Of a stretch of DNA of 64,000 nt, positions 36,349-49,983 are shown in pieces. Under the pieces are notes generated by a model. That model was not told the DNA's origin. It saw only the letters and a program-made list of their open reading frames with translations, and made no database searches. The first letter of the stretch is position 1. Every line of letters begins with the position of its first letter. The translations under genes and the position numbers were made by a program. This DNA comes from Planktothrix tepida PCC 9214. Lineage in GTDB: Bacteria > Cyanobacteriota > Cyanobacteriia > Cyanobacteriales > Microcoleaceae. The stretch lies in assembly GCF_900009145.1 (NCBI RefSeq), contig NZ_LN889796.1, positions 155,609 to 219,608 of the forward strand. Reading direction: 5' to 3'.

Positions 36349-37194
36349 TTAATCTTGATATAGCTGATAAAGTTTAGTAACTTCCTGTTTAAATCGTTGT
36401 CGTACCGCATCCGGTGCCACAATTTCACAATCTGGGCCATAGCGAAACACCTCCCGAATTAACCAAAACGGATTCACAACCCGTCGCACCACCTGACGCA
36501 CCTCACCCAAAACCTTGTTTTCCAGATCGTCCGGTTTCGGTTCATAGGCATTGACTAACCATTTTTTAAAGTGTAAGTACACTTTTATAGAATCCAGCGA
36601 TTCGCGCCATTCTCCCTCAATCGGTAAAATTCCGTTAATTCGGTCTAACCTCAAACATCGATTGTGATGGAGTTCTGGCCCGTCTTCGCTATCTTCGGTT
36701 TCATCACACCATATTTGTAAGTAATAGCGTTTCTCATAAAAGCAGATTTCAGCATAACGGGCGGTGTACTCCATTTGCTGTTTTTGAGAGTTGGTATAAA
36801 CAACGTGAAACGGCTGTTTTCGGGCAATTTGCTGATCGACTAAAATCCGCCATGCTTGAGTGGGTTGACTGACTTTTTGGAGGAGAGACTGACGCAAAGG
36901 AGCTTGTAAGTTGCCTCGGTTGACCAATAGGGATAATAAAATCTGAGCTTCCTCTACAGAACCCGAATCCACTAACACTTCCGTTGCTTTTTTTAATGCC
37001 TTGACCTGATTGGCATCGAGGGTAAAGGGTTGTCCGACTTCGAGTTGGGAAAGGGCGATCGCACCAATTAACCCCGATGCACTGGGTTTATCACCCCATT
37101 TGATATCCAGGCGTTGGGCGATGTCTTCGAGCTTTTCTTTGGTTCCAGGGGGGACAGACAGGGTTAGGGTTTCTTTTTTTCTGGGCATTTTCAA
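36349..37194 (-). CDS. WYL-domain transcriptional regulator of the CRISPR-Cas locus
   Basis: 281 aa. The N-terminus (KETLTLSVPPGTKEKLEDIAQRL) looks like a ribbon-helix-helix DNA-binding head; the middle and end match a WYL domain (YAEICFYEKRYYLQIWCDET, NRCLRLDRINGI). It is divergent from cas3' across a very short gap. WYL regulators next to cyanobacterial type I-D operons are known; in Synechocystis Sll7009 is reported to repress such a locus. A role as repressor here is inference from position. Confidence 0.75.
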   Translation of the reverse strand: MKMPRKKETLTLSVPPGTKEKLEDIAQRLDIKWGDKPSASGLIGAIALSQLEVGQPFTLDANQVKALKKATEVLVDSGSVEEAQILLSLLVNRGNLQAPLRQSLLQKVSQPTQAWRILVDQQIARKQPFHVVYTNSQKQQMEYTARYAEICFYEKRYYLQIWCDETEDSEDGPELHHNRCLRLDRINGILPIEGEWRESLDSIKVYLHFKKWLVNAYEPKPDDLENKVLGEVRQVVRRVVNPFWLIREVFRYGPDCEIVAPDAVRQRFKQEVTKLYQLYQD

Positions 37195-37242: not shown

Positions 37243-37310
37243 AGTAGATGTCAATACATTCTAGTCTCAAACAGGAAAGTTTAATTGTGGATACCTACTC
37301 TATCACACTC
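37229..37310. promoter_or_regulatory. Candidate operator: imperfect inverted repeat around the cas start site
   Basis: GAGTGTGTGATAGTAG (37229-37244) overlaps the -10 region, and CTACTCTATCACACTC (37295-37310) is close to its reverse complement, differing by two 2-nt gaps. The pair brackets the predicted transcription start and could be the site of the WYL regulator. Confidence 0.35.
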
Positions 37311-39467
37311 AAGCCTGTTTATTCCTGTCCCGCGTCAGAACCGTTGCAGGGGGTGACGTTACCGCCCGGTTGGACATTAGCTTGGCATCAAGCCGAAACC
37401 TTTAAAGCGTTGAGTGATCCGAATATTGATGTGGTTTTCAATACAGCCATGACGGGGGATGGTAAAACATTGGCGGCTTGTTTAGATGTACTTCTTGGTA
37501 ACGGTTCAGCAATGGTGCAGTATCCAACAAATGAATTGGCTCGTGATCAAGAAATACAAATTCAAGGCTATGTTGAAAAATTCAACCCCTTTCCTCTACC
37601 TCGCATTGGTCGTTTAAGTGGTGCAGAGTTAGAACTTTATGCTGAGAATGAAGGTGTGAGAAAAAGTGCTGTCCTCGAAACACATACCAGTCAACGAGAA
37701 ATTTTACTGAGCAATCCAGATATTCTTCACTACTTACATCGGGGTGCTTATTTAATGCCCAAAGATAGCCCTGATAAGCTGTGGGGAAGAATTGATGAAG
37801 ACTTTGATCTATTCATCTTTGATGAATTTCATGTTTTTAATGCTCCTCAAATTGCCAGTGTGATCAATACCTTGTTATTAATTCGTTACACGAAGCGACA
37901 GAAAAAGTTTTTATTTCTTTCAGCAACCCCCAATCAAGAATTACTCACACGCCTTAATAAAGTTGGGTTTCGGTGTGTAGAAATTAATCCGATTGATCAA
38001 AATAAGTATGTTTTTCCAAGTACCATTAAAGAATGTCAGGAACTTGAGGCACAAAAATGGCGTAAAGTATCCAGAGAAATTAAACTGAATTTTATTTCAT
38101 TAGAACCTTCAACAAAAGCTTCTGAAAACTGGTTAAAAGACAATCAGCAACTAATTTTAGATTATTTCCAAAATAATCCAGGGAGTAAAGGAGCGATTAT
38201 TCTCAACTCCATTGCTGCTGTCAAGCGATTAACCCCAATTTTTACTGAATTTCTTAAACCCTATGGATTAACAGTTGGCGAAAATACAGGTTTATCAGGA
38301 AAGGGGCAAAAAGAGCGATCGCTTTCAACTGATTTAGTTTTAGGTACTAGCACAATTGATGTCGGTGTTGACTTTAAAATTAACTTTCTGATTTTTGAAT
38401 CATCCGATACCGGAACCTTTATTCAACGGTTAGGACGGTTAGGACGGCATGATGATTATGAAAAAGATGGTAAAAAAATAGCCTTTACTAACTTCACTGC
38501 TTATGCTCTAACTCCCAATTTTCTAGTCGGTAGTTTATTTTTAGAACAATCAGCACCGTTAGAAATAGGTGGAACTTATGATAGAAAATATTTCAACGAG
38601 ATTTTGAAAGATAAATATTATAAGATTAATGACTTTAGCAAATATTATTCTCGTTGGGGTGCGGTTCAATCTGTCATATTGTGTGGAAAAAATGGATTAG
38701 GTAATGATTACATTAAGCGAAGTTATGCAGGAAGCCAAGAAGCCTTTAAAACAGCGTGTGAAGAAGTTTTTGAGACAAAATTCGGTAGAGTTGCAGGTTG
38801 CTTAAGACGATGGCGAAGTGAGTGGCAACAATTTTCTGGTCGAGATGGAAATCCTATCGCGGATGAAGCAGCTAGTTTTCGGGGATCAAGTCCGCTTCAG
38901 TGTGGTATTTATGACTTAACTGAAGCCCATGAAATTGATCGGTTTAAAACCTATGATTTACCTGGAATTATCAGCAATTTAGAAATTGAAGTAATCTCTA
39001 AAGAAGCTTTTTTGCGATCGCTTCACCAAACCGCAGAACGTCGTAAGCAACCGATACCTAAAAGTCGATTTGAATACTGTTTGGCTTTTATGAAATTGCA
39101 TAATTATCGAGAAGAACGTTTAAATTGGCGATTGACTTACCCAGGAGATCTACAACCGATTGCAGACGCTTGGAAAGTTCAAGTTTTATTAGGAATTCAA
39201 GTATGGCAACCTCAAAACCGTTGGATTAGCGAAATTAATAAAAGGCTGAGAACAAAACCCTTAGTCAGTTATGTTTTGCCAATCCCAATGATTGAGGTTC
39301 GTAAACGTTTACGTCTTCCTATGCACTTTCAAATTTATGAATTAGATGAAACAGGTCAACATGATCGCAATGCCATCTATTCCGTTGCTTTTGGTCAGTC
39401 TGCATTACTGTTAGAAACCCTCGCCTATCGGTTCAAAAGTCATGGAGGTGAATTATGGATTTGTTAG
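37287..39467 (+). CDS. cas3: Type I-D Cas3' helicase
   Basis: Superfamily 2 helicase that unwinds and pulls target DNA after Cascade binding. In type I-D the HD nuclease is on Cas10d, and indeed no HD domain is present here. 726 aa from the GTG at 37287 (AGGAAAG 7-8 nt upstream); an ATG at 37248 in frame is the alternative. Motif I TAMTGDGKTLAA (about residues 54-65), DEFH box in FIFDEFHVF, motif III LSATPN, motif VI QRLGRLGRHDD. First gene of the cas operon. Confidence 0.88.
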   Translation: MDTYSITLKPVYSCPASEPLQGVTLPPGWTLAWHQAETFKALSDPNIDVVFNTAMTGDGKTLAACLDVLLGNGSAMVQYPTNELARDQEIQIQGYVEKFNPFPLPRIGRLSGAELELYAENEGVRKSAVLETHTSQREILLSNPDILHYLHRGAYLMPKDSPDKLWGRIDEDFDLFIFDEFHVFNAPQIASVINTLLLIRYTKRQKKFLFLSATPNQELLTRLNKVGFRCVEINPIDQNKYVFPSTIKECQELEAQKWRKVSREIKLNFISLEPSTKASENWLKDNQQLILDYFQNNPGSKGAIILNSIAAVKRLTPIFTEFLKPYGLTVGENTGLSGKGQKERSLSTDLVLGTSTIDVGVDFKINFLIFESSDTGTFIQRLGRLGRHDDYEKDGKKIAFTNFTAYALTPNFLVGSLFLEQSAPLEIGGTYDRKYFNEILKDKYYKINDFSKYYSRWGAVQSVILCGKNGLGNDYIKRSYAGSQEAFKTACEEVFETKFGRVAGCLRRWRSEWQQFSGRDGNPIADEAASFRGSSPLQCGIYDLTEAHEIDRFKTYDLPGIISNLEIEVISKEAFLRSLHQTAERRKQPIPKSRFEYCLAFMKLHNYREERLNWRLTYPGDLQPIADAWKVQVLLGIQVWQPQNRWISEINKRLRTKPLVSYVLPIPMIEVRKRLRLPMHFQIYELDETGQHDRNAIYSVAFGQSALLLETLAYRFKSHGGELWIC

Positions 39468-39997
39468 CGTTTCGATCCCTGATAGGGATTATAGGAAGGC
39501 ATCAGCCTCTGCATATAGTGGCGGAAATTTCAATCCCTGATAGGGATTACAGATCGCTCAACCCAGCTTGGCAAGCGATATTGAAATTAACTTCCCACTG
39601 TAAGTATACACAATCTATGCCACCTATGGAAATTGCATGGTCTTCCGTTACTAAATATATAAATGATGTGTTATCATCCCGATATGGTTGGCATCATCCT
39701 CTGGATATAGTGACGGCGATGGTTGGACGCCATTTATGGCCTTCTGACGACTCCTTGCTTTTTCTGGAAAAGAAGCCACCCTTTATCCAAACTAAAGGAG
39801 TGTCTCAATCATGTATAAACAACTGGAACTGTTTGACTTGCGACCCTACACCTGTAAGGAGTCTGCTACAAAAACCTATCCAGTTCAGCCAATGGAGGAA
39901 ATTTATCAATGCTGCGAGTACCAACAACTTGAACTTGATCTATTCCCACCGCAGTGTTGAAACAACTCTTTCAGAGTTAATTAACGTTTCTAATTAA
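39455..39997 (+). CDS. Doubtful 180-codon ORF spanning the degenerate repeats
   Basis: An ATG overlapping the end of cas3' by 13 nt has a good ribosome site (GGAGGTG, 39444-39450). The frame stays open for 180 codons through both degenerate CRISPR repeats, the duplicated segment and, in another phase, the small ORF at 39811. The product resembles no known family. The duplicated DNA differs from its copy at three amino-acid-changing positions, so there is no sign of protein-level selection. I think this is more likely a relic or chance frame, but translation initiation here is possible. Confidence 0.25.
   Translation: MDLLAFRSLIGIIGRHQPLHIVAEISIPDRDYRSLNPAWQAILKLTSHCKYTQSMPPMEIAWSSVTKYINDVLSSRYGWHHPLDIVTAMVGRHLWPSDDSLLFLEKKPPFIQTKGVSQSCINNWNCLTCDPTPVRSLLQKPIQFSQWRKFINAASTNNLNLIYSHRSVETTLSELINVSN
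39469..39494 (-). CRISPR. Degenerate CRISPR repeat B (reverse orientation) after cas3'
   Basis: On the minus strand the last 26 nt of the array repeat are present with one change: CTATAATCCC TATCAGGGATcGAAAC (the T of ATTGAAAC is C). It starts 1 nt after the cas3' stop. The hairpin arms AATCCCT/AGGGATT, the part that Cas6 recognises, are intact apart from the last pair. The 5' third of the repeat is not conserved. Confidence 0.85.
39527..39562 (-). CRISPR. Degenerate CRISPR repeat A (reverse orientation)
   Basis: On the minus strand a nearly full-length repeat of 36 nt: the first five bases GTTGA are kept, the next few differ, then CTgTAATCCCTATCAGGGAT and TGAAAt. The full 7-bp stem and the 8-nt handle (one change) are present. 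With repeat B it encloses 32 nt between conserved cores, making a one-spacer mini-array antisense to the operon. Confidence 0.85.
39603..39632 (-). promoter_or_regulatory. Candidate minus-strand promoter for the mini-array
   Basis: Read on the minus strand: TTTCCA (39632-39627), an 18-nt spacer, TATACT (39608-39603). It points toward degenerate repeat A about 40 nt away, as a minimal leader would. Confidence 0.35.
39811..39960 (+). CDS. 49-aa small protein between cas3' and cas10d
   Basis: ATG with AAAGGAG 8-9 nt upstream. The protein begins MYKQLELFDLRPYTC and ends EYQQLELDLFPPQC, so it carries a duplicated (Y)(K/Q)QLEL motif. QLELF and QLELDL both resemble beta-sliding-clamp-binding peptides (QL[SD]LF and QLxLxL). 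Four cysteines. No known Cas family. It sits in a different phase inside the 180-codon frame and is the better coding candidate of the two. A hairpin follows directly after its stop. Confidence 0.5.
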   Translation: MYKQLELFDLRPYTCKESATKTYPVQPMEEIYQCCEYQQLELDLFPPQC

Positions 39998-40039
39998 AAG
40001 CTAATAGGGTTGAGGCGTTATTCATTCCTCATCCCTATT
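39964..40039. promoter_or_regulatory. Two hairpins between the small ORF and cas10d
   Basis: First AACTCT-TTC-AGAGTT (39964-39978), then AATAGGG-TT-GAGG / CCTC-AT-CCCTATT (40003-40039). There is no T run, so they are unlikely simple terminators; they may set mRNA processing or attenuate expression of downstream cas genes. Confidence 0.4.
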
Positions 40040-40090
40040 TAGTAGTGGCTTTCATGAAAAGTTTTGGTTACTTTTTGGAGAAACAAAGCA

Positions 40091-43000
40091 ATGAAAAGAA
40101 AAAATAAAAAATCTGAGCAGGAAATACAGCAGTTATCGCTGTTTGATGAATCTGAGTATATAAGTGGTAATGAAATTAATCAAGTTGACGAAGAATGGTC
40201 GCCAGATGATGATTATGGAGAAGGACTTGAACAAAAAAGTCGTCCTATTGAAACACAACCTCCTGAATTAATTCCCCTTAAAATCTTGAAAGACGCAATT
40301 AAGGCTCAAAATCCTGATGATGTCGTTATGCAGGACTTGAGTGAGTATGTATTATCAAACTTATTGCGAGTTGGTATAGGAGTAACTGCAAAAGGCGGAA
40401 AATTTTTTGACAAGATTGATGAAAAACGAGAAGAGACGGGGGAACCTCCAGTTCGGCGAGATCATGCTGGAGATCAATCTCTTAACACTCATTTACTGAA
40501 TGGATTATTCCCAGCTAATTTAATTGAGCAACGTTTGGAACAACTTGATACAACAGTGCAGCGTTTTGTAAAAGAACGAGAGCGGAGACTGGCGATCGCT
40601 GGATTTATTCTACATGATTTCGAGAAATTTGATTATCAACGATTTCCCAATATGCCTGAGCAGTATAAGGCAGTTCCAAAAGATCAGATCCGTGATTTAT
40701 CTTTGGAGGAACATCGAGAAATCATTGATATTCTTATTAAAGAATTAAATCTTGACCGATTTCTATACCCGAATCAACCAGAGGAATATCAAAAGCATAT
40801 AGATGATTTACTTTATATTGCTTATAATGCTCAAAAACGTCATGATACAAACTTAAATACTTCAGAATTTGGATTAAATAAACTCACACTCAAAGGCAAG
40901 CAACCTAAAAGTTTAGCTGACCTTGCCTATTTGGCAGATTCTCTAGCTTCTGTGATTAAACATCCACAGGATATAGATGTTCCCAAGCTACAAGAATTAA
41001 TTCACTCTTTAAGTGATGGGCAACTAAAATTTACTTATCACCGCATTGCAGAAAATCGAGGGGTGCTGACGAATGTTATTAACAATGCCTTAATGGATGA
41101 ACATACTGGACTCAACCGTAAAGATTGTCAATATTTTCCCCCGTTTTGCCATTACTATGAACCCTTGCTTTATCTCCCCACTGGGATCATTTATCTTCAA
41201 CATAAAAATGCACCTCCAATTTCAACAGAAAACCTGCCAGAAAAAGTAATTGATAAGATCAAAAATCTTTGTATAGAGGAATTAAAACAACAACAAAAAG
41301 GTTTTGTCCGAGAAGGTAAAGGGATGAAATATGCCGAATATTATGATCTATTTTTTGATGATATTGCTTTGATGAAAGTCGCTCTTGATGCCACTCGTAA
41401 CACTATCAAAAGCAGTAAAGCTCAAGATCGCAGTCAAAGCCTTCAGGAATTCCAAAAAAAAGGAGCATTATCGGCTCAATACAATTTTGAATTTTCTAGT
41501 GATGTTCGGATTGATCAATTAGCAGAGTTTGGGGATTTATTGACTCGAAAAATTTGGTCTGATAGAGTTGCGAAAATTATTGATGAGAATAAGAAAAACA
41601 AGACCAATAAGGCAGGAGGAACTGTTCAACTGCCTGATGATCTGAATTCTAGTGATCAATTAGTTTATAAAATTGTCGAATTTTGGAATTTAGGTGAATA
41701 TTTACCTGCTGTTCAAGAAATTCAGAATATTAATGGAAAACTGAAAGAACTAAAACTTAAAGGTAATACAGGCGGTCTTCCTTTAGAATGGTATTATTTA
41801 GCAGCTAAGTATATTGAGCATCATCCCAGCTTAGAAGATATTCAAACCACAGGAGATGATTTAATTACTTACCTTGCTGAACTTCTAAATCCTATTTTAC
41901 AACAAAATAAATCAGCGAATGACGGATGGGAAGATCTGCGCTTATGGCTCAAACAAGTGGTGATGTTACCTACTGGAAATAAGACTCAAACTGATCAGTT
42001 TCTAAAAGAACTAAAATACTATCAATCAGCAAAACAGCCTGGACGGGGTAAGCAGCTAATTTGTTCAATTTCTCATTCTGCTTACACTGTAAAAGAACAA
42101 ATGGAATCTGCTGTTTTATTTACACCCCAAGTTTATACTAATAAACAAATGCTGGGCGGTTCTAATGCTAAACGGAATATCTCTAGTATTGCTCAAATCG
42201 AGTTGATGTTGCGTCAAATTTTAATGAGCAAAACTCAAGCAGTCGGAAAAAGCTTTGAAGATGGTAAATATCGCTATTTGTACTTTTATCCGACCTATTA
42301 TTTTACTCCTGAAACAAATTGTTTTTTAGCAAAAGTCTATGATCAAATTGTTCAAACTCGCTTTGATACAGGGATACGGAATCACTTCATCAGTCAAGAT
42401 ATGCAAGCCGATTTTTCTTTAGAACGTTATCAAAGCGTAGATTTGTTTAAACTATCTGAAGGAAAAAAATCAACAACAGATGAGAAACAAGAAAGCAAGA
42501 AAAGCTTAATTTTCAAACTGAACTATCCTGAAGAACAACCTTTAACATTTTATTTCATGGCATTACCACCTGAAAAGCGAGGCAAAACTGAACCGACGGA
42601 TACAGAATCTTGGGTTATGCCAACTTGGTTAGCATTCGCATTTCCTATGATTTTAGATGTCAAAACTGTTGTTTCAGAATCTCCAATTCCACCATTCACC
42701 GATGGGACAGAATTTGAACAAACAGTATTTTTAGATAGTGCGCCTCAAGCCTTCCGAGTTTTAACTCAAGAAGAACGTTTTCGTTTGGATTATATTCTGG
42801 AAGGATGGGAGAAAAAGCAATCTAAATATCCTGCACCTTTAAAAGTTTTAACGGCTGCTTATGCAATTAATTTGGATGTTAATGCTCGACAAACTAAAAA
42901 AGGCTATAACCCCAACTGGGGAAAACTATCTGAATTGGCGCGAGACTTTGAAACGAGTCCTCTTTATGTTTTTACTTATCTAAAAAATTGGGTACGTTCT

Positions 43001-43603
43001 CAAAATCTCGATACTCCTAGCAAGGCTAAAATTCGACTCTATGCCTATCAATTTTATCCTTGCTTCGATCCCCATGTTGAATACAACTTTGAATTAGAGG
43101 ATTGGACTATGACTGAGCAATCAAAACTGCACCACCCTAAAAAATTAACAGAGTTATATCGCAAATTCTATCGAGCGAAATCCACCAAAGGCAAACCCAC
43201 AAAAGCAAATGCTATTTTGAAACCGATTGATGAGGCGGCTGATGTTATTTTGAAAGCTGAATTAAGCTGGTGTCAAGGTGAAGCAATGGTTGATGCTGTT
43301 GCCGCACGACTGTTTAGTTTAATGAATCGAGTTCACAGTTCCACCGCAGAAGGGCGATGGGTTTTCAAAAATAGTGAACGAGATCAGGAAAGAGAGACGA
43401 TTTTAGATTTTGCTCGATATTTTGTTCTGGAAGTTTTTGAAGGAACATTTAAAGGCGATCGCGCTCGTTTAGCAGGTCGTCAACTTAATCTAATTCGGGA
43501 TACTTGCGAATTTATATATCGCCTAGAAGATGATAAAGAATATCGAGCAAGAAAACTATCTAATGATGATTCAAAAGGAGGTGATCCGCAAGAAGAAGAA
43601 TAA
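40091..43603 (+). CDS. cas10d: Cas10d (Csc3), large subunit of type I-D effector with HD nuclease
   Basis: Signature protein of type I-D, 1170 aa from ATG 40091 (GGAG about 12 nt upstream; the frame is open from a TTG at 40064). An N-terminal acidic region precedes an HD nuclease domain with DH at about 124-125 and HD at about 175-176 (FILHDFEKFD). The Cas10-like palm/helical body follows; no GGDD cyclase motif is seen, as usual for Cas10d. Residues 14-18 are QLSLF, a perfect match to the beta-clamp-binding consensus. The end is charged (DDSKGGDPQEEE). Acts in DNA interference with Csc1, Csc2 and Cas6. Confidence 0.92.
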   Translation: MKRKNKKSEQEIQQLSLFDESEYISGNEINQVDEEWSPDDDYGEGLEQKSRPIETQPPELIPLKILKDAIKAQNPDDVVMQDLSEYVLSNLLRVGIGVTAKGGKFFDKIDEKREETGEPPVRRDHAGDQSLNTHLLNGLFPANLIEQRLEQLDTTVQRFVKERERRLAIAGFILHDFEKFDYQRFPNMPEQYKAVPKDQIRDLSLEEHREIIDILIKELNLDRFLYPNQPEEYQKHIDDLLYIAYNAQKRHDTNLNTSEFGLNKLTLKGKQPKSLADLAYLADSLASVIKHPQDIDVPKLQELIHSLSDGQLKFTYHRIAENRGVLTNVINNALMDEHTGLNRKDCQYFPPFCHYYEPLLYLPTGIIYLQHKNAPPISTENLPEKVIDKIKNLCIEELKQQQKGFVREGKGMKYAEYYDLFFDDIALMKVALDATRNTIKSSKAQDRSQSLQEFQKKGALSAQYNFEFSSDVRIDQLAEFGDLLTRKIWSDRVAKIIDENKKNKTNKAGGTVQLPDDLNSSDQLVYKIVEFWNLGEYLPAVQEIQNINGKLKELKLKGNTGGLPLEWYYLAAKYIEHHPSLEDIQTTGDDLITYLAELLNPILQQNKSANDGWEDLRLWLKQVVMLPTGNKTQTDQFLKELKYYQSAKQPGRGKQLICSISHSAYTVKEQMESAVLFTPQVYTNKQMLGGSNAKRNISSIAQIELMLRQILMSKTQAVGKSFEDGKYRYLYFYPTYYFTPETNCFLAKVYDQIVQTRFDTGIRNHFISQDMQADFSLERYQSVDLFKLSEGKKSTTDEKQESKKSLIFKLNYPEEQPLTFYFMALPPEKRGKTEPTDTESWVMPTWLAFAFPMILDVKTVVSESPIPPFTDGTEFEQTVFLDSAPQAFRVLTQEERFRLDYILEGWEKKQSKYPAPLKVLTAAYAINLDVNARQTKKGYNPNWGKLSELARDFETSPLYVFTYLKNWVRSQNLDTPSKAKIRLYAYQFYPCFDPHVEYNFELEDWTMTEQSKLHHPKKLTELYRKFYRAKSTKGKPTKANAILKPIDEAADVILKAELSWCQGEAMVDAVAARLFSLMNRVHSSTAEGRWVFKNSERDQERETILDFARYFVLEVFEGTFKGDRARLAGRQLNLIRDTCEFIYRLEDDKEYRARKLSNDDSKGGDPQEEE

Positions 43604-43656: not shown

Positions 43657-44706
43657 ATGACTTTTCTGAAAACCGTTAACTCTAAAAAGTTCTTTCAAGC
43701 CGAAATCCCCTACAAACCAATGGGCAAATATGTACATTTCCTCACAGTCCGCGTTACCGAATCTTATCCTCTTTTTCAAACCGATCAAGAACTAAATAAA
43801 GCTAAAGTTCGAGCAGGTTTAAAACGGGAAAATCGCGCTCCCATTAGTCGCTTAACCATGTTTAAACGGAAACAGTCAACCCCAGAACGTTTAGTTGGTC
43901 GAGAACTGTTGCGAAATTATGGTTTAATGACGGCTGAAGAATGCGAATACAATGTCAGATTTGCAATGGATAATCCTGATTGTATTATCTATGGATTTGC
44001 CATTGGTGATTCGGGTTCAGAAAAGTCAAAAGTCGTTGTTGATACCGCTTTCTCTATCACCCATTTTGACGATTCCCATGAATCTTTTACACTCAATGCT
44101 CCTTATGAAAATGGAACAATGGCTGCAAAAGGCGAAAAAAAAGAACTGGGACAAGGAAAAAATAGCCCAGGCAAATTAGATGGAGAAATTGGGAGTACAA
44201 CATCTCGAATTAATCAGCAAGATCACATCCGCCCCCAAGTTTTCTTCCCTAGTATTATTACCCTCAAAGATCCAACTGAAGCCAGCTTTTTGTATGTTTT
44301 TAATAATATCTTGCGTACCAGTCGCTACGGCGCACAAACAACTCGCACAGGTAAAATGCGAAATGAACTGATAGGAGTCGTTTTTGCTGATGGGGAAATT
44401 ACCAGTAATCTTCGTTGGACTCAGGCAATTTACGATCAATTTTCAACAGAAATCCTTCAATCTCTCGAACCTTTAGATGAGGATGATGTTATGGAATATG
44501 CTGAAATAGCTATCAAGAGTTTGTTACAGGATGAACCTATTGTTCATACTGATTTTATTGGTAACGAGTTTCAGACCTTACTTCAGGAAGTTAAAGCTCT
44601 GACAAGTCAGGAAGAATCTCTTAAAGCAATTCTACAAAAAGCAGATGCAGAAGCTAAACAATATGCTTCTGATCATATTAAAGGCAAGAAAAAAGCTGAA
44701 GTGTAA
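43657..44706 (+). CDS. csc2: Csc2 (Cas7-type backbone subunit, type I-D)
   Basis: 349 aa. Cas7-family protein that polymerises along the crRNA in the I-D effector complex. The start ATG follows TTGGAG about 8 nt upstream. The N-terminus (GKYVHFLTVRVTESYPLFQ) begins the RRM-like fold; the length and position between cas10d and csc1 fit. The C-terminus is charged (DHIKGKKKAEV). Confidence 0.9.
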   Translation: MTFLKTVNSKKFFQAEIPYKPMGKYVHFLTVRVTESYPLFQTDQELNKAKVRAGLKRENRAPISRLTMFKRKQSTPERLVGRELLRNYGLMTAEECEYNVRFAMDNPDCIIYGFAIGDSGSEKSKVVVDTAFSITHFDDSHESFTLNAPYENGTMAAKGEKKELGQGKNSPGKLDGEIGSTTSRINQQDHIRPQVFFPSIITLKDPTEASFLYVFNNILRTSRYGAQTTRTGKMRNELIGVVFADGEITSNLRWTQAIYDQFSTEILQSLEPLDEDDVMEYAEIAIKSLLQDEPIVHTDFIGNEFQTLLQEVKALTSQEESLKAILQKADAEAKQYASDHIKGKKKAEV

Positions 44707-44719
44707 CGGAGTCGAACTA

Positions 44720-45430
44720 ATGACAATTCTCTATCGTTGCACAATAGAACTGCATGATAGCCTTTATTTTGCCACTCGTGAAATTGGGCGACTCTATGAA
44801 ACGGAACCCATTCTGCATAATTACGCCCTTTGTTATGCCTTGGGTTTAATTGATAACCCTTCCTATCAAACAACGGTTGCTGAGGAAGATTCCTATCGTT
44901 ATTTCTGTCCTGAACAAGTTCCGAAATACGCCGAACATTTAACGCCTCTGAATCAACAGGGAATTTATGTAACTCCAGCCCGAACCGTTAACTATACTGC
45001 GGTTCTCAATACTTGGAAATATGCCAATAATAACTATCATGTTGAGATGGAAAAAACCCAAAAGAATATTCCCAGTTTTGGCAGAACAAAGGAAATAGCC
45101 CCTGAAAGTCAGTTTGAGTTTTTTATCATTACTGAAAAATCGTTGAAACTGCCAAAATGGATTCGGTTAGGAAAATGGGCAAGTAAGGCAGAATTAACAA
45201 TGGAAGAATTACCGTCTTCTAAACAAGATCGAGAGAGAGAATTTATTTTTTCCTATCCTTTGAATCCTTTGGATGTGATGTTTACTCATCAAGTTTTGAG
45301 TTATGACACGATTAATATGCCTCCGGTTAGTTTAATTCGTAATGTCAGAATGCGAGGGGAATATTACAGCGTTCAGATGAGGAAAGAAACGTTAAAAATT
45401 CCTGCCCAAATGCAATACCGTTTTCGTTAA
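44720..45430 (+). CDS. csc1: Csc1 (Cas5-type subunit, type I-D)
   Basis: 236 aa from the ATG at 44720; the frame is open earlier but overlaps csc2. Cas5-like protein (MTILYRCTIELHDSLYFATREIGRLYETEPILHNYALCYALGL) that caps the 5' handle of crRNA and takes part in PAM reading. It starts 13 nt after csc2. Confidence 0.88.
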   Translation: MTILYRCTIELHDSLYFATREIGRLYETEPILHNYALCYALGLIDNPSYQTTVAEEDSYRYFCPEQVPKYAEHLTPLNQQGIYVTPARTVNYTAVLNTWKYANNNYHVEMEKTQKNIPSFGRTKEIAPESQFEFFIITEKSLKLPKWIRLGKWASKAELTMEELPSSKQDREREFIFSYPLNPLDVMFTHQVLSYDTINMPPVSLIRNVRMRGEYYSVQMRKETLKIPAQMQYRFR

Positions 45431-45432
45431 CC

Positions 45433-45491
45433 TGTAGGGTGGGTGACGCATTAATCGATCTTAACTTTTGTTTTTTCTCACCCACCCTACA
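45433..45491. repeat. Intergenic inverted repeat between csc1 and cas6
   Basis: Perfect 14-bp arms TGTAGGGTGGGTGA (45433-45446) and TCACCCACCCTACA (45478-45491) around a 31-nt loop. A dispersed cyanobacterial element of the GTAGGGTGGG family inserted inside the cas operon. Confidence 0.75.
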
Positions 45492-45509
45492 ACTTACTAA
45501 GGTGAAATT

Positions 45510-46328
45510 ATGCCCCATAGTCTTGTTCTCAATTTGTTGCCACTTTCTGCTATTCCTCCTAACTTTTTAACGGGACGACATCTTCATGCGTTATTTCTAA
45601 CATTAGTCAGTTCTGTTGACCCCGAATTAGGAACTTATTTACATGAACAAAAAACCGATAAAGCGTTTACCTTAAGTCCGTTACAAATCAGCAAAACGAT
45701 TCATCAGAATGTTCTGCAATGGCAACATAAGAAACCGATTTCAAGCGAAACTCCTTGCTGGTTAAGAATTTCTTTATTGGATGATAATTTGTTTAGTCAT
45801 TTGAGTGGTTTATGGTTAAATCTTAATCCTAAAACACCTTGGCATTTAGGCCCTGCTGATTTACAAATTACCAGTATTTTAGGCACACCTCAATCGACTC
45901 AACCTTGGGCTAATTTTTCATCCTATCATCAATTGTATGAACAAGCATCTGATGAAAACCGCCAAATAGAATTGATTTTCTGTACCCCAACAGCCTTTCG
46001 TCAAAGCAATTTTGATTCTGCTTTACCCACGCGAGATAGTGTGTTTGGGTCGTTATTAAGACGTTGGAATCAATATAGCGGGATTCCTTTTGAAGATACT
46101 TTAATTGAACCTATTTTTCCGAGTTTCTTCAATATTAGAACGGAGATTTTAGCGGATTCTCGCAGTAAATTTATTGGCTGTGTGGGAGTTATGAATTTTA
46201 GAATTTTGGGAGATGTAGACCCAATGGTTATTAAACAGATTAATACCTTAGCGGATTTTGCTCTGTATAGCGGTGTCGGACGGAAAACACCGATGGGGAT
46301 GGGAATGATGAGGAGAATTAAGAATTAA
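45510..46328 (+). CDS. cas6: Cas6 crRNA-processing endoribonuclease (type I-D)
   Basis: 272 aa. Cuts the pre-crRNA in each repeat to leave the 8-nt handle ATTGAAAC. The C-terminal glycine-rich loop (GVGRKTPMGMGMMRR) is the Cas6 signature that binds the repeat stem. An N-terminal His (around RHLHALF) is a candidate catalytic residue. Confidence 0.88.
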   Translation: MPHSLVLNLLPLSAIPPNFLTGRHLHALFLTLVSSVDPELGTYLHEQKTDKAFTLSPLQISKTIHQNVLQWQHKKPISSETPCWLRISLLDDNLFSHLSGLWLNLNPKTPWHLGPADLQITSILGTPQSTQPWANFSSYHQLYEQASDENRQIELIFCTPTAFRQSNFDSALPTRDSVFGSLLRRWNQYSGIPFEDTLIEPIFPSFFNIRTEILADSRSKFIGCVGVMNFRILGDVDPMVIKQINTLADFALYSGVGRKTPMGMGMMRRIKN

Positions 46329-46371: not shown

Positions 46372-46456
46372 ATTCAATCAACTTCTTGCGATCGCTCTTA
46401 CTCGCCAACTCGATCAACAATTTTTGTTAATTTTTAACCACAATTTAGGTGAAATT

Positions 46457-47053
46457 ATGGAAACCATTGATTATATTCCGATTTCGTCTTTGAATCATTT
46501 TTCCTATTGTCCCCATCGCTGCTGGCGAATGTTTTGTGCAGGGGAATTTGTTGATAATCAGTATACCATAGAAGGAACGAGTTTGCACGACCGTGTTCAT
46601 AATTTTGGAGAACAAAATCGTGATGAAATTTGGCAAGTTCGGGCGGTTTGGTTGAAATCTGAACGTTATAAATTAATTGGAAAATCGGATTTAATTGAAT
46701 CACAATCGGGAGAATTTTACCCCGTAGAATATAAACGGGGACGCAAAGGGGAATGGGATAATGATGAAATGCAGGTGGTAGCGCAAGCGTTATGTTTAGA
46801 AGAAATGACGGGTAAAACTGTCACAAAGGGTTATATTTATTATGCTCAATCTCATCAACGTCAACCTGTGGAAATTTCCTCAATATTACGAGAACAAGCA
46901 ATTAATATTATTGATCAAGTTTTCGCTCTTTTACAAACGGGTCATCAACCTTTAGCAAGTTATCAAAAACGCTGTAAAGGTTGCAGTTTGTATGAATCTT
47001 GTTTACCGAAAATTGCTGCAAAAGTTAGTCGGTATCAAGAGGTGATTGTTTAA
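46457..47053 (+). CDS. cas4: Cas4 adaptation nuclease
   Basis: 198 aa from ATG 46457 (AGGTG 7 nt upstream). RecB-family nuclease with a 4Fe-4S cluster: cysteines at 18 and 22 (YCPHRCW) and the C-terminal CKGCSLYESC group. Nuclease motifs GKSDLIE and VEYKRGR are intact. It trims and PAM-selects prespacers for Cas1-Cas2. Confidence 0.9.
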   Translation: METIDYIPISSLNHFSYCPHRCWRMFCAGEFVDNQYTIEGTSLHDRVHNFGEQNRDEIWQVRAVWLKSERYKLIGKSDLIESQSGEFYPVEYKRGRKGEWDNDEMQVVAQALCLEEMTGKTVTKGYIYYAQSHQRQPVEISSILREQAINIIDQVFALLQTGHQPLASYQKRCKGCSLYESCLPKIAAKVSRYQEVIV

Positions 47054-47057
47054 GGTA

Positions 47058-47096
47058 AATATTGTAGTGCGAGCGTCCTCGCTCGCTAGTATTTAC
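47058..47096. repeat. Palindromic element between cas4 and cas1
   Basis: Stem GCGAGCG (47069-47075) / CGCTCGC (47080-47086) with loop TCCT, widened by GTAAATA ... TATTTAC flanks. A second palindrome of another type (about 47124-47145) lies before cas1. Confidence 0.7.
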
Positions 47097-47171
47097 TTTA
47101 TAGATCATAGACAGTAATTCTGTTGCGTGCGGTTCGCTTACACAACCTACTATTTTTTTGAGGTTAATACA

Positions 47172-48176
47172 ATGGGAACGGTTTATGTTACGGTTAATGA
47201 TTCGTTTATTGGTAAAACGGATGAACGGTTAACGGTAAAGGCGGATAAGAAAAATGTTCTGGATGTACCGTTAATTAAGGTGGATGGAATTGTGATTTTA
47301 GGACGTTCAACGGTGTCTCCTGCGGTGGTTCAGGAACTTTTAGAACGACATATTCCGTTAACATTTTTAACAGATACGGGGCGTTATTTAGGACGATTAG
47401 AACCAGAAATGACCAAGAATATTTTTGTGAGAAAAGCGCAATGGGAAGCAGCCGGAGAGTCGGAAAAGGCGTTACATTTAGTCCGGGGGTTTGTGCGGGG
47501 AAAATTGAAGAATTATCGGATGATTTTATTGCGACAAGGACGTAAATATTCTGAACTGGATTTAGAGGCTGCTTTGACTCGGTTGGATAATGCGATCGCT
47601 CCTATTTCTTATACGAATAATATTAACTCTTTACGCGGTTTAGAAGGGGCGGGAAGTGCGGCTTATTTTGGTGCATTTGATCAGTTAATTCGGGGAGATG
47701 GCTTTAGTTTTAATTGTCGTAACCGTCGCCCGCCAACTGACCCAGTTAATTCTTTACTGAGTTTTGGTTATTCTTTATTGTGTCATGATGTGCAAAGTGC
47801 AGTTAATTTAGTGGGGTTTGATCCTTATTTGGGTTATCTTCATGTTCAACATTATGGTCGTCCGAGTTTAGCGTTAGATTTAATGGAGGAGTTTCGACCG
47901 TTAATTGTGGATTCAATGGTATTGAGTGCAATTAATTTAAAACAGTTGACTCCTGATGATTTTACCACAGAACCGATTAGCAATGCGGTGTTAATGTCTC
48001 CTGAAGGACGGCGAACGTTTCTGAAATTATATGAACAGAAAAAACAATCTAAGTTCAAGCATCCGGTGTTAGGTAAACAATGTACTTATCAAGAGGCGTT
48101 TGAACTTCAAGCGCGTTTATTAGCTAAATATTTGATGGGTGACATTGAAAAATATCCGCCTTTGGTGTTAAAATAG
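47172..48176 (+). CDS. cas1: Cas1 integrase
   Basis: 334 aa from ATG 47172 (GAGG about 10 nt upstream); the frame is open 15 codons earlier without a good ribosome site. Catalytic residues of the family are visible: Glu in LRGLEGAGSAAYFG, His in LHVQHYGRPSLALD, Asp/Glu in LMEEFRPLIVD. Together with Cas2 it inserts new spacers at the leader end. Confidence 0.93.
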   Translation: MGTVYVTVNDSFIGKTDERLTVKADKKNVLDVPLIKVDGIVILGRSTVSPAVVQELLERHIPLTFLTDTGRYLGRLEPEMTKNIFVRKAQWEAAGESEKALHLVRGFVRGKLKNYRMILLRQGRKYSELDLEAALTRLDNAIAPISYTNNINSLRGLEGAGSAAYFGAFDQLIRGDGFSFNCRNRRPPTDPVNSLLSFGYSLLCHDVQSAVNLVGFDPYLGYLHVQHYGRPSLALDLMEEFRPLIVDSMVLSAINLKQLTPDDFTTEPISNAVLMSPEGRRTFLKLYEQKKQSKFKHPVLGKQCTYQEAFELQARLLAKYLMGDIEKYPPLVLK

Positions 48177-48178
48177 TT

Positions 48179-48460
48179 ATGTTTGTTGTGGTGTCTTACG
48201 ATATTTCTGAGGATAAACGCCGCACTAAGATTCATTCGATCTTGAAATCCTATGGTCAATGGATGCAATATAGTGTTTTTGAGTGTGAGTTGACTAACAC
48301 GCAATATGCTAAATTGCGATCGCGTCTCAACAAAATTATTAACCCTGAAACCGATAGTATTCGCTTTTATTTCCTTTGTGCTTGTTGTCAGGGTAAGGTT
48401 GAACGTATCGGCGGCGAACAGCTACGGGATGATACGATTTTCTTTGCTGAGTTGCGCTAA
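48179..48460 (+). CDS. cas2: Cas2
   Basis: 93 aa, starting 2 nt after the cas1 stop. Ferredoxin-like fold with VVSYDISEDKRRTKIHSILKSYG, where the Asp is the conserved first-strand residue. Structural partner of Cas1 in spacer integration. Confidence 0.93.
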   Translation: MFVVVSYDISEDKRRTKIHSILKSYGQWMQYSVFECELTNTQYAKLRSRLNKIINPETDSIRFYFLCACCQGKVERIGGEQLRDDTIFFAELR

Positions 48461-48702: not shown

Positions 48703-49983
48703 GTTGAAATCAGCTATAATCCCTATCAGGGATTGAAACTCTGCTGATGCCAAATGTTCACCAAGCTGTAATTCAAAAGAGTTGAAATCAGCTATAATCC
48801 CTATCAGGGATTGAAACAATAACAAAATTAATGTTTCCCCTGATTACAGGTTGAAATCAGCTATAATCCCTATCAGGGATTGAAACCAGGCAGTTAACGT
48901 GCATATTAAAATCGGAATGCCGTTGAAATCAGCTATAATCCCTATCAGGGATTGAAACTTGTGATTCACGCTTTTCCATAGGGGCATCTATTATAGTTGA
49001 AATCAGCTATAATCCCTATCAGGGATTGAAACCCCGCTTATCTTCTGGGAGTGCTTTTGCCATTTCCCAGTTGTTGAAATCAGCTATAATCCCTATCAGG
49101 GATTGAAACGATTGGTATCTACTGACTCTGATAGTTGATAAACCTTATTAGTTGAAATCAGCTATAATCCCTATCAGGGATTGAAACGGGATAAACAATT
49201 TTATTCAAACCACCAACCCAGGTTGAAATCAGCTATAATCCCTATCAGGGATTGAAACAAGTTAATGATTCGATCTATCTAGTTGAATAGGAGGTTGAAA
49301 TCAGCTATAATCCCTATCAGGGATTGAAACTCAGCACTAAAAGAAGAATTCGATGTTTTAAACGATTTGTTGAAATCAGCTATAATCCCTATCAGGGATT
49401 GAAACCACACCACAGTAGACACTACAGAATTAGAGGCAAGGTTGAAATCAGCTATAATCCCTATCAGGGATTGAAACAGCTACGGTTTCCGAGTCAATTC
49501 TCAGAACTCGGTTGAAATCAGCTATAATCCCTATCAGGGATTGAAACTATTTGATATTGCTTAATTGCTATCACCAAACCGAGTTGAAATCAGCTATAAT
49601 CCCTATCAGGGATTGAAACCCTTCATTCGTTCCGGTCTTTTTGTCAATATTTGATGTTGAAATCAGCTATAATCCCTATCAGGGATTGAAACTGTCCCCA
49701 TCGCATTTTTCTTTTTTGTTTGCGGTTGAAATCAGCTATAATCCCTATCAGGGATTGAAACCATTGGCGTTCATGTAAAAACACGATACCTCCAGCAGAA
49801 TGTTGAAATCAGCTATAATCCCTATCAGGGATTGAAACAAAATATCCATATTATCTAGATCAGAATTTAGTTGTGTTGAAATCAGCTATAATCCCTATCA
49901 GGGATTGAAACTATTCGATGTTTGACCCACGCCAAGCCATCGAAAGGTTGAAATCACCTATAATCCCTATCAGGGATTGAAAC
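48703..49983 (+). CRISPR. Type I-D CRISPR array, 18 repeats, 17 spacers
   Basis: Repeats are 37 nt: GTTGAAATCAGCTATAATCC followed by CTATCAGGGATTGAAAC. The first 17 are identical; the last (49947-49983) has G to C at position 11, marking the leader-distal end. Each repeat has a 7-bp stem AATCCCT/AGGGATT and ends in the 8-nt handle ATTGAAAC. Spacers are 32-41 nt. Transcription is rightward. I saw no spacer matching another part of this window. Confidence 0.97.

Follow-up and report, generated by a model that had tools for sequence, protein, structure and literature searches.

A putative CreA/CreR-type guide RNA gene with two kinds of matched site in a cyanobacterial type I-D CRISPR-Cas locus

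What is the role of two decayed CRISPR repeats lying in antisense orientation directly behind the cas3' gene of a type I-D CRISPR-Cas locus? We addressed this question in a window of 64 kb (the whole stretch of DNA analysed), which is part of one contig of the 6.78 Mb genome of Planktothrix tepida PCC 9214. Analysis with Pfam and PADLOC identified a complete type I-D system, containing cas3', cas10d, csc2, csc1 and cas6 in that order, and the genes for Cas6, Cas10d, Csc1 and Csc2 are all present at the locus. It is arranged as follows:

36349..37194, minus strand: gene for a WYL/WCX-type regulator upstream of cas3' (WCX above, WYL below the Pfam cut-off)
37248..39467, plus strand: cas3', with the stop codon at 39465-39467
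40091..43603, plus strand: cas10d (start codon ATG at 40091, chosen by eye in preference to TTG at 40064)
43657..46328, plus strand: csc2, csc1 and cas6
46424..48460, plus strand: cas4, cas1 and cas2
48703..49983, plus strand: CRISPR array of 18 repeats of 37 nt each

Degenerate repeats and a spacer behind cas3'

A preceding sequence-only reading had described two antisense degenerate repeats of 36 and 26 nt at the cas3' stop codon, which preserve the Cas6 stem and flank a single spacer-like segment, and had proposed that they form a regulatory or addiction guide RNA. We recovered all of these elements at the following positions:

39527..39562, minus strand: upstream degenerate repeat psiR1, stem intact, handle ATTGAAAT; it would supply the 8-nt 5' handle
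39494..39526, minus strand: guide (spacer) of 32-33 nt between psiR1 and psiR2
39469..39494, minus strand: downstream degenerate repeat psiR2, without the 5' half but with an intact stem and the handle ATCGAAAC; it would supply the 3' stem
39603..39632, minus strand: candidate promoter of the guide gene, TTTCCA-18-TATACT, weak and not above the chance count

The repeat core AATCCCTATCAGGGATTGAAA matches the minus strand at 39528-39548 without and at 39470-39490 with one mismatch, and the other 18 of its 20 matches in the window constitute the array at 48703-49983, compared to a mean of 0.02 matches in shuffled windows. psiR2 starts 2 nt past the cas3' stop codon, and the guide segment amounts to 33 nt when counted to TATAATCC (39526-39494). 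Both degenerate repeats fold into a minus-strand stem like that of the array repeat; psiR1 keeps stem and handle, while the handle of psiR2 is altered relative to the array. The sequence-only reading had also suggested the plus-strand cas mRNA as a possible Cas6 substrate; the repeat stem is palindromic, but the handle sequence is absent from the plus strand. Degenerate array repeats flanking one spacer outside the array, as present in the window and its relatives, are a feature of CreA/CreR-type genes, and in CreA genes the 5' handle is reported to come from the first of two degenerate repeats and the 3' handle from the second (PMC8501985). A promoter scan of positions 39000-40400 returned five promoter-like sites versus a mean of 3.5 in shuffled sequences. 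When the array spacers were used as self-targeting controls, none of the 17 exceeded 66% identity elsewhere in the window. Two further arrays with a near-identical repeat stem and the same handle were observed in the same genome (L009, approx. 1079-1994, and L010, approx. 1294-2070), the latter with decayed repeats at one edge.

The conservation of the repeats was analysed by searching 291 genomes of the order for Cas10d (E<=1e-50). From the 102 positive genomes, we used the window and 96 other loci; five genomes were left out, two because of contig edges, two as partial or divergent, and one by oversight. One locus (L133) does not contain cas3', leaving 96 loci including the window with a cas3' end, 89 of which show a gap of more than 270 nt between cas3' and cas10d. 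We searched the region beginning 11 nt ahead of the cas3' stop codon and ending 168 nt behind it for repeats, with a threshold of at least 15 of 22 matching positions. Minus-strand repeats were found in 72 of the 96 loci and pairs in 46, which strongly confirms that the repeats are kept in related type I-D loci, and the 72 loci cover 22 of the 23 families present. Control stretches yielded no pairs, and repeats at the same threshold occurred in 0/87 cases before cas10d, 3/96 within cas3' and 3/95 within cas10d. Because of the palindromic stem, the region at the cas3' stop codon also yields hits in plus orientation (46/96 loci with 19 pairs), but at a threshold of 17 only nine loci and no pair are left, compared to 68 loci and 38 pairs in minus orientation. 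The remaining 24 loci contain no repeat above threshold; six of them are almost gapless, and others, including L077 and L113, do have repeats which were missed by the detection rule. In a smaller set, 39 of 59 loci carried a pair, 38 of which were scored because L064 was set aside there and kept only later. The analyses of guides and targets draw on the 61 loci whose distal repeat lies at +38 to +150 and matches in at least 15 of 22 positions; the sequence behind the handle of this repeat was taken as the guide.

A PAM-plus-seed target in the cas3'-cas10d gap

Type I-D systems recognise a GTN PAM (PMC10212523), and CreA pairs with its target in a PAM-dependent manner via seed positions 1-5 and 7-11 (PMC8501985). 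We searched for a GTN PAM followed by matches at these ten positions from the gap up to 200 nt inside cas10d. The window shows the following features:

39640..39674, plus strand: site 1, PAM GTC (39640-39642) and protospacer from 39643, seed 9/10 with a mismatch at position 7
39669..39677, plus strand: candidate extended -10 element TGT-TATCAT at the end of site 1, recognised by eye and unlisted in the promoter scan

Only 2 of 3000 shuffled guides reached a score of 9 at site 1 of the window. Among the 61 guide-bearing loci, 55 contain a gap site with at least 8 matching seed positions, 49 reach 9 and 24 reach all 10, compared to 6.5%, 0.6% and 0.0% for shuffled guides. If GT was replaced by any of the other 15 dinucleotides, 2-14 of the 61 loci reached 8, 0-5 reached 9 and none reached 10. 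Within 300 nt of cas3', a GTN PAM with a seed match of at least 9/10 to the own guide is present in 48 of the 61 loci, representing 29 distinct seeds and 16 families, whereas foreign guides with a different seed reached this score in just 1 of 3168 pairings (0.03%); 13 loci have no such site inside 300 nt. Scanning the whole loci yielded 58 hits of at least 9 in the first 300 nt after cas3' (43 on the plus and 15 on the minus strand) and six in the other 1.09 Mb covered by these loci.

The pairing was further analysed by position in 53 loci, whose PAMs are GTT (27) or GTC (26). Identity between guide and site amounts to 0.94-1.00 at positions 1-5 and 0.79-1.00 at positions 7-11, but only to 0.19 at position 6 and 0.17 at position 12, and it fades beyond the seed from 0.81 at position 13 via 0.72, 0.64, 0.57 and 0.40 to 0.30 at position 18. 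Positions 6, 12 and 13-18 played no part in site selection. The guides are thus free to mismatch at positions 6 and 12, as is the case for Cascade, and the pattern would be the trace expected from recognition by a type I Cascade. PAM-dependent pairing via positions 1-5 and 7-11 with partial pairing past the seed is a further CreA/CreR-type feature, represented in the window with 9/10, and the spacer looks like a working guide.

We also examined three of ten named loci and three of five plasmid records for the module. It is present on pANA02 of Anabaena sp. 90 (site 1 at 9/10, plus a relative of the 49-aa protein described below), in Dolichospermum sp. UHCC 0315A (site 1 at 10/10, on the minus strand) and in Picosynechococcus sp. 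PCC 7117 (L139; a guide and site 1 at 9/10). In L088 the detection rule had picked the wrong repeat, and the correctly read named copy of this locus (L144) has a site 1 at 9/10; L146 reaches 8/10. Planktothrix sp. PCC 11201 (L140) showed a single repeat and a best site of 7/10, and its module looks either broken or misread. In a more distant I-D group (L121, L123, L124, L126, L128 and L130), the PAM-seed sites are found on the minus strand, with two copies each for L124, L126 and L128, and a family of proteins of about 170-210 aa is encoded near the promoter.

The repeats might also represent functionless leftovers of a decayed or mis-inserted array, as they are degenerate and missing from 24 of the 96 loci. 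We regard this as very improbable, given that their position and strand, the psiR1 handle, the seed, the PAM and the six-nucleotide pattern are kept across 16-22 families.

Site 1 of the window coincides in part with a candidate promoter that precedes a 49-aa gene and cas10d; transcription from it is predicted to start at about 39684. Comparable TGn-TAnnnT elements were recognised by eye in five relatives of the same group, L044, L045, L055, L065 and L085. We treat the promoter as an inference because promoter scores at site 1 barely exceed those of shuffled sequences (8.09 vs. 7.48 in 45 loci, three of which reach 10). Taken together, we consider it probable from the sequence comparisons that the minus strand at 39469-39562 represents a CreA/CreR-type guide RNA gene of a type I-D system, and that Cascade represses the unit in the cas3'-cas10d gap. 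The seed mismatch at position 7 in the window and the unconvincing candidate promoter of the guide gene are points against this explanation.

A second, PAM-less target

The guide of the window has another match behind site 1:

39686..39718, minus strand: site 2, matching the guide at 26 of 33 positions and lacking a GTN PAM; it is complementary to a plus-strand transcript

This match was reached by none of 20000 shuffled guides inside the gap, and the own guide ranks first of the 61 guides in the gap of the window. After masking of site 1, extended matches (p<=0.01) were found on the minus strand in 28 of the 61 loci and on the plus strand in one. We tabulated 27 of the 28 minus-strand loci, dropping L111 because of a shifted guide; they represent 24 distinct guides from 14 families. 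Mean identity is 0.24 at positions 6, 12, 18, 24 and 30, compared to 0.65-0.97 in the other five phases, and a GTN PAM is present in 0/27 loci. Site 2 lies beyond site 1 in all 26 loci with both sites (site 1 being sought only within 300 nt of cas3') and is located 40-213 nt before cas10d in eight loci. In the window it would correspond to about +2 to +35 of the predicted transcript. Transitions at site 2 are predominantly wobble-compatible (38 vs. 10 incompatible), unlike those at site 1 (16 vs. 19), but we set this bias aside as proof because it shrinks to about 16 vs. 9 without positions 1 and 8.

Pairing over the whole length with every sixth base free, no PAM and an antisense orientation may reflect an RNA bound by the Cas7 filament. 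The I-D complex has been shown to bind RNA at approx. 11 nM with either of two flanks tried, needing no particular flanking motif (PMC9123187), and a 2023 review of type I-D states that interference in vivo has been shown only against dsDNA, while the complex prefers single strands in vitro (PMC10212523). We are evenly divided on the resulting proposal that one guide serves two targets, with the I-D Cascade, a hybrid of types I and III, holding promoter DNA at site 1 and binding, perhaps also cutting, the messenger at site 2. If it is true, type I-D would have a natural RNA target in site 2, as part of a two-level switch; no such natural target was found in the open-access literature, which was surveyed mostly at listing level. 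Site 2 also makes RNA versus dsDNA targeting by type I-D testable.

Alternatively, site 2 may be a second DNA target, acting as a roadblock or persisting as a relic of the origin of the guide, which we regard as a serious but rather doubtful alternative. Cascade can bind DNA, and up to 24 of 30 positions are identical between guide and site 2, which might have arisen by duplication; the loci are related, the strand bias does not represent independent events, and the 27 loci were chosen among minus-strand matches. A DNA target is harder to reconcile with the complete lack of GTN PAMs, the ratio of 28 minus-strand to one plus-strand loci, the constant order of the two sites, and the freedom of every sixth position, a pattern that mere decay should not produce.

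A further alternative starts from an open frame of 180 aa in the window (39455-39997), which contains guide and site 2 in one reading frame, so that the 26/33 match might be a coding repeat, or from solitary-repeat anti-CRISPRs, since these Racrs use solitary repeats (PMC10651486). We consider either extremely improbable and rejected the frame as a gene: its alignments to L044, L055 and L064 run through stop codons, and it has no family match in Pfam or PADLOC. Guide-target pairs with the six-nucleotide pattern recur in the relatives, which speaks against a coding repeat, and a solitary repeat is unlike the arrangement seen here, where a pair of repeats with its guide and matching targets sits within a cas locus.

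The idea that the flank of site 2 is a copy of the repeat handle was dropped, as it holds by eye only for the group with TTGAGATT and is not general. In L060, L061, L043, L073 and others, site 2 is enclosed by an inverted repeat, GGGAAGCT / AGCTTCCC, with the two halves about 150 nt apart. RNAalifold predicted a weak outer stem of 10 bp (-9.4 kcal/mol) around site 2 for a group of 14 loci.

Proposed control of the gap unit and its variable genes

From the conserved repeats, the guide and the two kinds of matched site, all of which are present in the sequence, we infer the following course of events for a CreA/CreR-type guide. The guide gene would be transcribed and the transcript cut by the own Cas6 at both degenerate repeats, yielding one crRNA-like RNA which would be loaded into the I-D Cascade. 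The loaded complex would find site 1 by the PAM GTC and the seed over the promoter of the gap and repress the unit behind it. In the window this unit would comprise the 49-aa gene and probably also cas10d together with the cas genes downstream; we assumed that cas10d is transcribed from the candidate promoter at site 1. Because the pairing fades past about position 16, Cascade would be able to bind without triggering cutting, by analogy with CreA. Site 2 would probably be bound in RNA and serve as a second lock or a sponge. Loss or inhibition of the loaded Cascade, or its depletion by crRNAs from the array, would switch the unit on, which would lead to more Cascade and the small product, and in relatives also to expression of the toxin-antitoxin genes. 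For the window we favour a Cascade-level sensor restraining a small gene and cas10d in a CreR-like manner, with an added toxin role being possible.

The small gene of the window is located between site 2 and cas10d:

39811..39960, plus strand: 49-aa ORF with two sliding-clamp-like motifs, QLELF and QLELDLF, about 12 C-terminal residues shorter than its relatives

The ORF has no Pfam hit. Across the protein and its nine relatives, the motif QLxLFD is kept in 10/10 and a second QL..LF motif in 9/10 sequences, and all nine relatives end in AA. QL[S/D]LF is a consensus motif for binding to the replication clamp (PMC12309361). A clamp-like QLSLF also occurs in the N-terminus of Cas10d in the window (40091-40200), and among 81 loci from the close group, 56 show QLxL[FLY] near the start of Cas10d; the I-D Cascade may therefore dock on the replication clamp via this Cas10d motif.

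Behind site 1, the loci carry one short gene from several unrelated kinds. Proteins of 49-64 aa with QLxLF motifs occur in at least ten loci including the window, and a small protein that appears winged-helix-like by eye and has no Pfam hit in at least 22; a family of about 170 aa (at least eight loci), coiled-coil-like proteins and others were also found. Toxin-antitoxin-type genes are frequent in the gaps of the 96 loci, with MNT and HEPN in at least 34 each (both in at least 27), DUF433 in at least 21 and DUF5615 in at least eight, and a PDDEXK gene in at least 20. At least 57 of the 96 gaps contain one of the first four, and at least 66 if PDDEXK is counted. These cargo counts are lower bounds obtained with one seed per family, and for the gaps between L077 and L087 they are the sole source on gene content. 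Pfam assigned one representative each to HepT-like, nucleotidyltransferase, DUF433 and DUF5615 families, while the name PDDEXK was taken from a record of Anabaena sp. 90 that is 79% identical to the seed used. Together with the conservation beside cas3', the co-varying PAM-plus-seed target and the second target, these genes support the regulatory or addiction guide RNA of the sequence-only reading.

In an addiction or alarm system like CreTA or CrePA, the guide would mainly keep a toxin off, which is compatible with the CreA/CreR-type guide proposed here and which we view as a tentative possibility. The toxin would be the 49-aa protein in the window, whose two clamp motifs could block the replication clamp, and HEPN-MNT, DUF433-DUF5615 or PDDEXK in the relatives; at least 34 of the 48 loci with a site 1 of at least 9 indeed carry one of these five genes. 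Toxin-antitoxin pairs of the HEPN-MNT or DUF433-DUF5615 type, however, come with their own antitoxin, the 49-aa protein of the window lacks the C-terminal tail seen in the related proteins and is possibly a remnant, and in 14 of the 48 loci, the window included, none of the five genes was detected. Since these 14 loci combine guide and site 1 without a detected toxin-type gene, and since site 2 lies near cas10d in eight loci, control of the unit leading into cas10d would be the common element, and toxin-type genes a frequent extra beside it.

The variability of the gap is illustrated by the sister locus L041 from another genome of the same genus. Up to 27 nt past the cas3' stop codon it shares 93.5% identity with the window, and the two align again, with 95.8% identity, from about 100 nt into cas10d. 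The roughly 700-780 nt in between (39495-40186 in the window) cannot be aligned, and either gap comes with a guide, a site 1 and a site 2 of its own. As these unrelated cassettes each fit their own guide, guide and targets are exchanged together as a unit.

Regarding known systems, the module resembles CreTA in its two degenerate repeats around one spacer, its location in a CRISPR-Cas locus (PMC12737573) and the pairing of the guide by PAM and positions 1-5 and 7-11 with a promoter (PMC8501985), which here is a candidate. In contrast to the CreTA cases described in the sources cited, which are haloarchaeal (PMC8501985) or belong to type I-F (PMC10097628), it is part of a type I-D locus and has a second, PAM-less target, and we recognised by eye no tRNA-sequestering minigene but protein genes behind the presumed promoter. 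In haloarchaeal CreTA the first repeat is more diverged (PMC9458426), whereas here the second repeat is shorter. Like CreR, it would produce an RNA that resembles a crRNA and is directed against a candidate promoter upstream of Cascade genes, and some loci are without detected toxin-type genes; unlike CreR, it has two target sites and a gap unit between the presumed promoter and cas10d. CreR is named for types I-B, I-E and V-A in one source (PMC13131331), which differs from the type I-D found here, and is called widely distributed in type I by another review (PMC12737573), so I-D members may already have been predicted. CrePA comprises guide-repressed protein toxins responding to the loss of Cascade (PMC12737573), which corresponds to an addiction role. 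It differs by its KilA-N-type toxin CreP, for which Pfam gave no hit with the window ORF or nine other cargo representatives, while the cargo here is varied and no known toxin family was found in the window gap by the Pfam scan and the seed-based cargo count. HEPN-MNT has been described beside type I-D in Aphanizomenon (PMC11676413, reporting Songailiene 2020), which is the same toxin-antitoxin type as in the gaps of the relatives, although absent from the window itself; for this pair ATP sensing is proposed, and control by a guide RNA is not mentioned in the relevant part of that source.

CreA, CreR and CrePA are already known. No I-D case of a guide of the CreA, CreR or CrePA type was found in the open-access literature, again mostly at listing level, and PMC10758571 covers mini-CRISPRs and type I-D with CreR and CreTA absent. 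If our interpretation is correct, type I-D loci in this cyanobacterial order would usually possess a built-in regulatory guide, and the cell could sense the failure of its own CRISPR defence. The presence of HEPN-MNT and similar genes beside type I-D would then be explained by their position behind a promoter shut by Cascade, from which they would be released once phages disable Cascade. The two-level switch of sites 1 and 2, if it exists, would in most I-D loci of cyanobacteria guard a variable gap island that encodes peptides with clamp motifs, proteins of winged-helix-like appearance and toxin-antitoxin pairs.

Two minor observations concern the gap. The predicted transcript of the window opens with a frame of eight codons (39687-39713, MVGIILWI), which by eye is not kept in L044. 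L091, L094 and L109 have two MNT-like genes in one gap, and as judged by eye a HEPN-like gene stands behind each of the two in L109, as if these cassettes were collecting modules.
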